This document shows, one piece after another, positions 95 through 7,734 of a DNA stretch of 64,000 nucleotides. The notes beneath the pieces are model-generated. The model was not told the DNA's origin, did no database searches, and saw only the letters and a list, made by a program, of their open reading frames with translations. The translations under genes and the position numbers were made by a program. How positions within the stretch are numbered: the stretch's first letter is position 1; every line of letters starts with the position of its first letter. Source of the DNA: Nitrosopumilus sp. (GTDB lineage Archaea; Thermoproteota; Nitrososphaeria; Nitrososphaerales; Nitrosopumilaceae); the NCBI RefSeq assembly GCF_025699255.1, contig NZ_JAILWA010000002.1, forward strand, positions 196,948 through 260,947. Direction: 5' to 3'.

Positions 95-1647
95 TGGAAT
101 ACGCATTACTACAGGCAGTTTTCTTGCCACTATTATTATCACCAGTAGCATACATTATCGGTAGAAAAGTAGGACCAACTCCTGCAATGTGGTTTACATT
201 TGCAATTTTGTTATACACTACAATTCTTGTAATCAATGCAGCACTTTCTGGAACCGTAGAAGAACATTACCCATGGACTGAACAGTTTGGTGAGTTTGGT
301 TTCTTACTGGATGGATTGGCATCTCCGTTTGCAATTATCATCTATGTGCTGTCTACAATCTTAGCACTCTACTCAAAACCATATATGATTCACAAATTCC
401 ATGAACAATTTGAGGAAGAAAAGAATCTCCATAGTTCTGGAAGTGGCCAAACTTCAGTTGTTGAATCTTCATCTCTATCTGATTATGTAAATGCAAAATC
501 TGGTCTTTACTTTGCACTCTATCTTGTATTTGCAATGGGAATGCTTGGAACAGTTCTTGCAACAAACTTGATTGAATTTTACATCTTCTTTGAAGTGATG
601 TTGATTCCTGGTTTCTTCTTGGTTGCTCTTTGGGGTGATGGTCCACGAAGAAAGATTGGTTTAATGTTCCTGTTTTGGACTCATGCCGGTGCAGTTGTTT
701 TACTCTTAGGATTTTTGATGATAGGGCTTACTATTGGCAGCTTTGACTTTGCAGATATTCAAGAATCTGAAATCCCTGCAGACATTGCGATGTATTCTGC
801 TGTTGCGATTTCAATAGGACTTGGGGTCAAACTAGCAGTCTTTATGTTCCATGTTTGGTTACCATACGTCCACGGCTCAGCACCTACCCCAATCAGTGCA
901 TTGTTGTCACCTGCAATGATCGGAATTGGAGCTTATGGTCTTTTCAGATTAATTGTAGAATTTTTACCCTTAACATTTGCAGAACTTTCAATTTGGTTCC
1001 ATATCTGGGGTCTTGTCACTATGATTTATGGTGGCGCAATGGCGTTAATGCAAGATGATCTAAAACGTCTCCTTGCTTATTCTAGTATCAGTCAGATGGG
1101 CTATCTTTTGTTTGGAATTGGTTCTATGTCCTCACTTGGTCTTACAGGCGCAGAGATGATGTATGTAACACACGGAATTGGAAAAGGCATTCTCTTCATG
1201 ATGGCGGGAATTATTATTGTTAAAGTTGGAACTAGAAGTATTTCAAAATTAGGCGGATTAGCAGGAAAGATGCCTATTACTGCAGTATGTGCAGTTATTG
1301 GTGCATTGACTATCATGGGAGTTCCACCAACAAGTGGCTTTATGGGAGAATGGATTCTATTTTACGGTGCATTAGAGACTGCCATCGAAGAAGGTTCAAC
1401 ATTAAGAGCTGTAACATTTGGTTTGGGTCTTGTTGCAACTGCACTTACAATGTCTTACATGCTTTGGATGCTAAAACGTGTCTTCTTTGGAAAGACTCCA
1501 GAACATCTAGAAAATGTCAAAGAAGGAAGTTGGTACATGACAGCTCCAATGATGGTATTAGCAGGCTTCTCAATTGTAGTTGGTATTTATCCAGATATTT
1601 TCTTGAAGACAATTATTCCATACATGAACGGAGTGTTGGGAGTATAG
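94..1647 (+). CDS. nuoM: NADH-quinone oxidoreductase subunit M (antiporter-like proton pump)
   Basis: A 517-aa multi-helix membrane protein of the complex I antiporter family. The conserved acidic site lies in the helix FYIFFEVMLIPGFF (Glu near residue 167) and a pump lysine in GVKLAVFMFHVWLPYVHG (Lys near 246), followed by the hallmark HVWLP...APTPISALL segment and the LLAYSSISQMGY motif. It moves protons across the cytoplasmic membrane as complex I oxidises its donor; in ammonia oxidisers the complex probably runs in reverse or uses ferredoxin/quinol (inference). The start ATG overlaps the nuoK stop, and the nuoL start follows three bases after the stop, so translation is coupled. Confidence 0.95.
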   Translation: MEYALLQAVFLPLLLSPVAYIIGRKVGPTPAMWFTFAILLYTTILVINAALSGTVEEHYPWTEQFGEFGFLLDGLASPFAIIIYVLSTILALYSKPYMIHKFHEQFEEEKNLHSSGSGQTSVVESSSLSDYVNAKSGLYFALYLVFAMGMLGTVLATNLIEFYIFFEVMLIPGFFLVALWGDGPRRKIGLMFLFWTHAGAVVLLLGFLMIGLTIGSFDFADIQESEIPADIAMYSAVAISIGLGVKLAVFMFHVWLPYVHGSAPTPISALLSPAMIGIGAYGLFRLIVEFLPLTFAELSIWFHIWGLVTMIYGGAMALMQDDLKRLLAYSSISQMGYLLFGIGSMSSLGLTGAEMMYVTHGIGKGILFMMAGIIIVKVGTRSISKLGGLAGKMPITAVCAVIGALTIMGVPPTSGFMGEWILFYGALETAIEEGSTLRAVTFGLGLVATALTMSYMLWMLKRVFFGKTPEHLENVKEGSWYMTAPMMVLAGFSIVVGIYPDIFLKTIIPYMNGVLGV

Positions 1648-6942: not shown

Positions 6943-7016
6943 GGGCCCGTAACTCAGCTTGGTAGAGTAACCGGCTCATAACCGGTGAGCCAAGGGATCG
7001 AAGCCCTTCGGGCCCA
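6943..7016 (+). tRNA. tRNA with CAT anticodon (elongator Met or Ile2)
   Basis: The acceptor is GGGCCCG/CGGGCCC with discriminator A. The anticodon stem ACCGG/CCGGT encloses loop CTCATAA, giving anticodon CAT. The G1-C72 pair argues against initiator tRNA. The GGGCCCGTA start resembles archaeal tRNA-Ile2, whose C34 is modified to agmatidine, so Met or Ile cannot be decided by eye. The T-loop reads ATCGAAG, lacking T54. A TATA box (ATTTTATACC) lies about 26 bases upstream. No CCA is encoded. Confidence 0.9.
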
Positions 7017-7059
7017 TTATTTTCAATTAGTTTTAAAATAAGCACATCAAAAATTATTT

Positions 7060-7123
7060 GGCCGCAATGAAGAATCAGAGTTATATCTGAATTGATGATT
7101 GGAAGGCATTTGACTGAGCTGCC
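7060..7123 (+). ncRNA. Candidate C/D box sRNA (2'-O-methylation guide)
   Basis: In the short gap between the CAT tRNA and pyrE the boxes occur in the canonical order: C-like ATGAAGA (7067-7073), D' CTGA (7087-7090), C' TGATGA (7093-7098) and D CTGA (7114-7117). A terminal stem of GGCCGC with GCTGCC closes them. The TATA-like TTTTAAAATA at 7031-7040 is 25 bases before the predicted 5' end. The guide before box D is complementary to CAAAUGCCUU, which I recall as part of the conserved 23S rRNA segment after AAGGUAGC. The C box has one mismatch to RUGAUGA. Inference from pattern only; no target search was run. Confidence 0.65.
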
Positions 7124-7128
7124 AAAAA

Positions 7129-7734
7129 TTACTTGTTGATTTGCTTTTTGACTTTTTCTAGTATCTCTTGATCAATTAGATTTTGCTCATACAGTGCTTC
7201 AGTAATCTGTAAAATATTTAGAATTGAATGCATTTTTACTCCTAATTCTAATAATGCTTCATCTGCACCTTCCATTCTGTTCACAATAACATATGCATCT
7301 TTAACTGAGATATTGACTTCTTTTAGAGATTTTATTGCATTAACCACTGACCCTCCAGTTGTTGCAACATCATCTATCATTACAACTTTCATGTTGTCAT
7401 GAATTTTACCTTCAACTGATTTGGATGTTCCATAATCTTTTGGCTTGCTTCTTACATAGATCAATGGTTTGACAGTTTCAATTGCTAATGCTGATGCAAT
7501 CACTAATCCTCCAGTTGGAACTGAAACAATAGAATCAAAATTATCTAATCCAATATCTTCTACAATTTGATTTTCAAGATATTTCACCATTTTTCTGAAT
7601 TCTATCGGATAACTTGGTACTAATCTTAAATCAACATAATACGAACTATGCTTTCCACTTGCTAGTGTAAAGTCACCGAATTTTATAATGCCTTTTTGAT
7701 GCAAAAATGTTGCAAACTCTTTTACAAATTCCAT
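7129..7734 (-). CDS. pyrE: Orotate phosphoribosyltransferase
   Basis: A 201-aa type I phosphoribosyltransferase. The PRPP-binding motif is VVMIDDVATTGGSV, and the flexible loop YVRSKPKDYGTSKSVEG carries the catalytic lysines typical of PyrE. It converts orotate plus PRPP to OMP in pyrimidine synthesis. ATG start; length is normal. Its 3' end lies six bases from the candidate sRNA coming from the other strand. No other pyr gene is in the window. Confidence 0.93.
   Translation of the reverse strand: MEFVKEFATFLHQKGIIKFGDFTLASGKHSSYYVDLRLVPSYPIEFRKMVKYLENQIVEDIGLDNFDSIVSVPTGGLVIASALAIETVKPLIYVRSKPKDYGTSKSVEGKIHDNMKVVMIDDVATTGGSVVNAIKSLKEVNISVKDAYVIVNRMEGADEALLELGVKMHSILNILQITEALYEQNLIDQEILEKVKKQINK

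Follow-up and report, generated by a model that had tools for sequence, protein, structure and literature searches.

The sRNA locus and its anatomy

A short interval between two genes of Nitrosopumilus sp. raises the question of whether a guide RNA is encoded there and, if so, which nucleotides of the ribosomal RNA it may address. The window, meaning the whole stretch of 64,000 nucleotides that was analyzed, is located on contig C2 of a 1.65 Mb genome. In an initial annotation, made from the letters alone, a C/D box sRNA was proposed at 7060-7123, with one guide matching conserved 23S rRNA. The interval lies 43 nt downstream of tRNA-Met (6943-7016) and is followed by a convergent phosphoribosyltransferase ORF (7129-7734, Pfam PF00156), perhaps pyrE. 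The 5S rRNA gene is found on the same contig (window 13508-13627), and the 16S-23S pair is located separately on contig C1.

The boxes, the terminal stem and the TATA-like element that had been claimed were all located in the sequence (Table 1), with C, D', C' and D following in this order within about 60 nt. Both C and C' deviate from consensus: box C differs from RUGAUGA in the fifth letter, and an alternative C' chosen by consensus (TTGATGA, 7092-7098) would stand 15 nt from box D. In the stem, 5 of 6 positions are paired, with one C-U mismatch. The stem closes the C/D k-turn, and the ends are k-turn-like, with a single unpaired base before box C and a stem that directly abuts box D. The published rule for inter-box spacing, as given in excerpts of PMC3608112, is 10-12 nt. 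With 12 nt from C' (family register) to D and 13 nt from C to D', the C' and D' spacings of this sRNA are less than ideal. A single instance of the C/D architecture was found in the 64 kb, and none in 60 Markov-simulated windows, both strands included.

Table 1. Features of the sRNA locus (positions in the window).
Feature	Position	Strand	Support
Box C/D sRNA, whole, 64 nt	7060..7123	+	Model R2, 65.6 bits, E 3.9e-15 in the window; model R1, class-wide
TATA-like promoter block GTTTTAAAAT	7030..7039	+	100% identity in 30 genus loci
Terminal stem, 5' arm GGCCGC	7060..7065	+	Covariation
Box C ATGAAGA	7067..7073	+	TGA at fixed register in 74/74 listed archaeal loci tested
D' guide	7074..7086	+	9 bp to helix 69, own 23S 2014-2022
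Box D' CTGA	7087..7090	+	Read from sequence; 13 nt after box C
Box C' ATGATTG, family register, 12 nt to D	7095..7101	+	Family alignments, spacing counts
D guide core AAGGCATTTG	7103..7112	+	10 bp to own 23S 2038-2047
Box D CTGA	7114..7117	+	CTGA in 159/165 distinct homologues
Terminal stem, 3' arm GCTGCC	7118..7123	+	Covariation

Pairing with the ribosomal RNA of the same genome

The 23S and 16S rRNAs were located with Rfam models, and target runs were required to be contiguous Watson-Crick pairs extending through position -5. The alignment to the organism's own 23S rRNA that the annotation had proposed gave 10 bp through -5 with CAAAUGCCUU (2038-2047); the predicted ten-base complementarity is thus present in the same genome, and the next-best run of the D guide in 23S or 16S is 6. 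By the rule of five, the nucleotide addressed is A2041 (E. coli A1938), the last A of CAAA, as had been stated. The D' guide forms 9 bp with 23S positions 2014-2022 in helix 69 (H69), with a next-best run of 7 in 16S, and its +5 nucleotide is A2015 (E. coli A1912). Near the box this second duplex is imperfect, with G-U at -1, A-A at -2 and G-U at -3. The two targets are 26 nt apart, that of D' lying upstream, within H69, and that of D just 3' of the helix. The annotation was therefore right about the target of the D guide and incomplete in missing both the D' target and the deep family described below.

An assembly of boxes by chance might be considered, as such boxes are short and as, among 3000 stretches of 64 nt drawn at random from the window, 47 had a D run of at least 10 bp through -5 and 194 a D' run of at least 9. 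The D match alone (1.6% by chance) is only suggestive; both guide matches within 100 nt, however, were found in 0 of the 3000 stretches. The two guides jointly, together with their conservation, are decisive for a real sRNA, and the probability that we attach to chance assembly is negligible. Read from these pairings, the RNA appears to be a double guide directed at the subunit-interface hotspot of 23S.

Conservation in the genus, class and phylum

In 30 genus loci, including this one, both guides are 100% identical, and mean identity is 95.4% over the sRNA and 66% over the 5 bases 3' of it. The TATA-like block is identical in the same 30 loci, and the spacer that follows (7040-7058) averages 66.5%. 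All 50 family loci inspected have such an element some 29 nt before the stem, and it is retained where the tRNA is not adjacent (L040, L045, L053). In some relatives (e.g. G098, G158, G181), the tRNA match is located elsewhere in the genome and the sRNA still has its TATA block.

A covariance model, R1, was built from 18 family sequences and applied with a cut-off of E<=0.1. Of the 400 genomes of the class, 345 gave a match, and so did 72 of the 82 genera, a distribution that again argues against chance. An earlier family-genome count (193/200) was left unused for prevalence, its query having contained the tRNA. When 30 genomes were picked for divergence among the R1 matches, all 30 matched again; the D core AAGGCAT was present in 28, the D' core CAGAGTT in 29 and both in 27.

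Beyond the class, the exact two-guide pattern was found in 102 of 398 phylum genomes, and the backward-read control was empty in every row. By our own count of the table, 72 of the 74 genomes belonging to the class are included; the 324 others contribute 30, of which one (G645) is doubtful. A broader model, R2 (44 sequences, cut-off E<=0.01), matched the sRNA or its relatives in 273 of the 398 genomes. From the table we counted matches below 1e-5 in every one of the 74 class genomes and in about 119 of the 324 others; weak matches near 1e-3 (e.g. families f42 and f45) may represent any C/D sRNA. Among the matches listed, 20 from outside the class contained AAGGCAT in 18 cases, and AGAGTT in 13 with AAAGTT in the other 7, a sample biased by the inclusion of the guides in R2 itself. 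In the AAAGTT form one base mispairs with the target CTCTGA, a target sequence seen in three such lineages or close kin.

Scanning all contigs returned 106 stretches, 101 with archaeal and 5 with bacterial labels, by a pattern that demanded a non-T after the D' core and so left out most of the sRNA's own family. Where the archaeal label is specific, it is always of TACK (Nitrososphaerota, Bathyarchaeota, Thermofilaceae, Marsarchaeota, Calditenuaceae, others), and the named relatives are mostly Nitrososphaerota, Nitrosopumilus included. No Asgard or euryarchaeal label was seen among the 106, several labels being just 'archaeon', and in other archaea the target letters may differ. The C box is missing in 4 of the 5 bacterial-labelled stretches, as should be the case for chance matches, versus 0 of 74 archaeal ones. 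L230, on a contig labelled 'bacterium', holds the full archaeal architecture and was retained as a member; its bin label is probably wrong.

In the fixed-register box analysis, the expression failed to pick up five loci (L096, L105, L111, L183, L266), and L168, L213, L226, L229 and L249, which have no TGA in box C, were excluded before the stem count. Two of these, L249 and L266, proved to be genuine members that the expression had misread. The R2 match is good for L096, L105 and L183 and weak for L111 and L276.

Covariation of the stem and decay of box D'

Covariation is strong in the terminal stem, whereas the two guide cores hardly change. Among 56 distinct arm pairs, a mean of 4.98 of the 6 positions is paired, compared with 3.75 (sd 0.10, maximum 4.11 of 2000) with arms swapped. 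In 44 diverse sequences, double changes occur at all six stem pairs, and double-change cells number 58, a value reached by 0 of 500 shuffles (19.0, sd 3.6); slid registers gave 9 to 21. This covariation also refutes chance assembly. Within the 18 family sequences alone the stem is nearly invariant, and support from covariation is absent. The target, too, hardly varies within the phylum.

The same data bear on whether the interval is instead an unrelated hairpin, or a terminator, that belongs to the tRNA-Met gene before it or to the convergent phosphoribosyltransferase gene. Its location between two genes and the internal UCAGA/UCUGA, which can pair as a hairpin, would agree with this. That hairpin, however, is gone in lineages without CTGA; the sRNA and its TATA block are also found where the tRNA lies elsewhere, and the guides are conserved and complementary to rRNA. 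The free-energy fold is no better than that of shuffled sequences (z -0.25), as expected of an open guide RNA. With class-wide matches and stem covariation in addition, a hairpin or terminator is very improbable, and the C/D sRNA proposed by the annotation stands on anatomy, conservation in class and phylum, covariation and guide matches to its own rRNA.

Spacing between C' and D is 12 nt in most homologues; as the last TGA or TGT was used for measuring, at least some of the 31 sequences scored at 9 nt have ATGATGT and a spacing of 12 nt. Of 165 sequences, 83 have 13 nt between C and D' and 39 have 12 nt. In many lineages the D' box and its spacing decay: the box becomes GGGA or GTGA or is absent, and the GA offset ranges from 0 to 4. 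Offset 4, the type of the present sRNA, points to A1912, and offset 3 to A1913, which equals yeast A2256. CAGAGTT, the H69 complement, persists in lineages with decayed D' boxes, which suggests that the pairing itself matters.

Proposed mode of action

Domains of fibrillarin (PF01269, 295.6 bits) and Nop5 (PF01798, 231.9 bits) are both encoded on contig C5, on one strand and 347 bp apart. Expression of the sRNA, RNP assembly and methylation are what we infer from these genes and from the features above. Very probably, the locus encodes a double-guide C/D sRNA whose transcription would depend on a TATA promoter of its own. L7Ae, a putative partner, would bind the terminal k-turn, where Nop5 and fibrillarin would assemble. 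The D guide would then pair with the strand 3' of H69, directing a 2'-O-methyl group to A2041 (E. coli A1938, yeast A2281). The D' guide is predicted to pair with H69 itself, so that both interface strands would be held at once during assembly, and A2015 (E. coli A1912) may additionally be methylated under its guidance.

Methylation by the D' guide is the weak part of this explanation, because the D' box and its spacing decay in many lineages. The mispairing base in 7 of 20 distant homologues also weighs against a strict need for the D' duplex. The RNA may instead work as a single guide plus an anchor, in which only A1938 would be methylated and the D' guide, by pairing with H69, would serve as an anchor or as a chaperone of folding. 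We consider this a serious possibility, somewhat short of an even chance. It would fit the retention of CAGAGTT beside degenerate or vanished D' boxes with variable GA offset, the 13 nt D' spacing and the imperfect pairs at -1 to -3 in the present sRNA, and chaperone roles have been proposed by Dennis et al. (2015, PMC4644070). Against it, the sRNA's own family has an intact D' CTGA, and lineages with offset 3 would reach A1913, the equivalent of yeast Am2256 and a real methylation site.

Comparison with known guides

We take the yeast pseudouridines 2258 and 2260 to be E. coli 1915 and 1917. Both are marked as conserved in E. coli in the table of PMC8307265, as far as its excerpt goes, and the resulting offset of 343 equates A1938 with A2281 and A1913 with A2256. 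According to excerpts of PMC5199042 and PMC8307265, Am2281 is guided in yeast by snR13 and Am2256 by snR63; the human equivalents are U15 and U46 (excerpt of PMC8817022).

The D guide is almost identical to the 3' guide of eukaryotic SNORD15/U15. That RNA and yeast snR13 share with the archaeal sRNA the D guide core AGGCAUUUG, the CUGA box and the target nucleotide A1938. The score of the sRNA against SNORD15 (RF00067) is 14.4-14.6 bits, below the gathering threshold of 75, and we know of no H69 guide in U15 or snR13. Where the archaeal sRNA has A, the eukaryotic guide has G (Rfam SNORD15), presumably matched by the 28S letter; this was not counted as evidence. The likeness to U15 may reflect either descent or convergence, since the invariant target dictates the letters that any guide to this site needs. 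The snR63/U46 RNAs also target H69, and offset-3 homologues of the sRNA would hit the same nucleotide. In eukaryotes, however, this is a separate RNA, and the D' guide of the present sRNA points one nucleotide upstream, to A1912.

None of the Rfam families matches the sRNA above threshold. The best scores among sRNA families, 24.0 and 22.4 bits, were obtained with sR20 (RF01140) and sR11 (RF01150), which are alike in box layout and size; both scores are below gathering (44 and 39), and the guide letters differ, so that the likeness resides in the boxes.

The double-guide archaeal C/D sRNAs of Dennis et al. (2015, PMC4644070) likewise carry two guides to nearby rRNA sites. In that paper, H68, H69 and H71 are described as hotspots, with predictions dense around E. 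coli A1912; the target region itself was thus already known. The sRNAs described there come from seven archaea, none of them thaumarchaeal in the text consulted, and about 17% of sites are common to any two species, whereas the guides of the present sRNA are kept class-wide and beyond. Fast evolution of archaeal C/D guides is also reported in an excerpt of PMC7994747, with fewer than two-thirds of predicted targets conserved within Pyrobaculum. The portion consulted of a 2024 review table (PMC11542601) gives no methylation in archaea (P. abyssi) at either of the two eukaryotic sites. In the open-licence literature searched, we found neither this RNA nor thaumarchaeal C/D guides described.

Evolutionary implications

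To judge from its sequence, the sRNA would represent a new, unusually conserved family within a known RNA class, with a familiar mechanism. The surprise lies in the depth to which both guides are conserved and in the site shared with eukaryotes, not in the mechanism. As both guides are kept across the class and into much of the phylum, the family is a counter-case to fast guide turnover. Of the two interface nucleotides that it would address, one is the eukaryotic Am2281 site and the other is Am2256 or lies next to it. How old these marks are, and whether archaeal and eukaryotic guides have a common origin, becomes testable by sequencing, for example in cultured ammonia oxidisers. As a speculation of low probability, the common ancestor of TACK may have had a double-guide RNA for A1938 and H69, the archaeal counterpart, possibly the ancestor, of U15/snR13 and U46/snR63. 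If true, it would join the few guide RNAs with address labels surviving from archaea to eukaryotes.

Atypical members

Some individual loci differ from the common form. Two different sRNA copies are present in one genome (G073:C18:49122-49189 and G073:C32:918-984). In another, a second 23S stretch, GTAACTATGACCCTC...GCGTAATACC (G424:C36:3743-3775), differs from the genome's other copy and resembles contamination by a different group of archaea. In one lineage (L113, L173, L187, L210, L230, L246), a GGTC...GACC hairpin can fold in the D'/C' region where a clear D' box would otherwise stand.

L276 (G645, family f42; 228-290, minus strand) at first resembled a chance match, although on re-reading ATGAAGA, 13 nt, CTGA, GTGAAGA, 12 nt and CTGA fit the architecture. 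Its D guide is the same, but its D' guide is another, GTTACCCCCG, and a good stem is missing; it is a candidate C/D sRNA, perhaps a re-targeted relative. Its D' guide would pair with the GGGGGTAAC form of the H69 stem, a few nucleotides upstream; this form occurs in L116.
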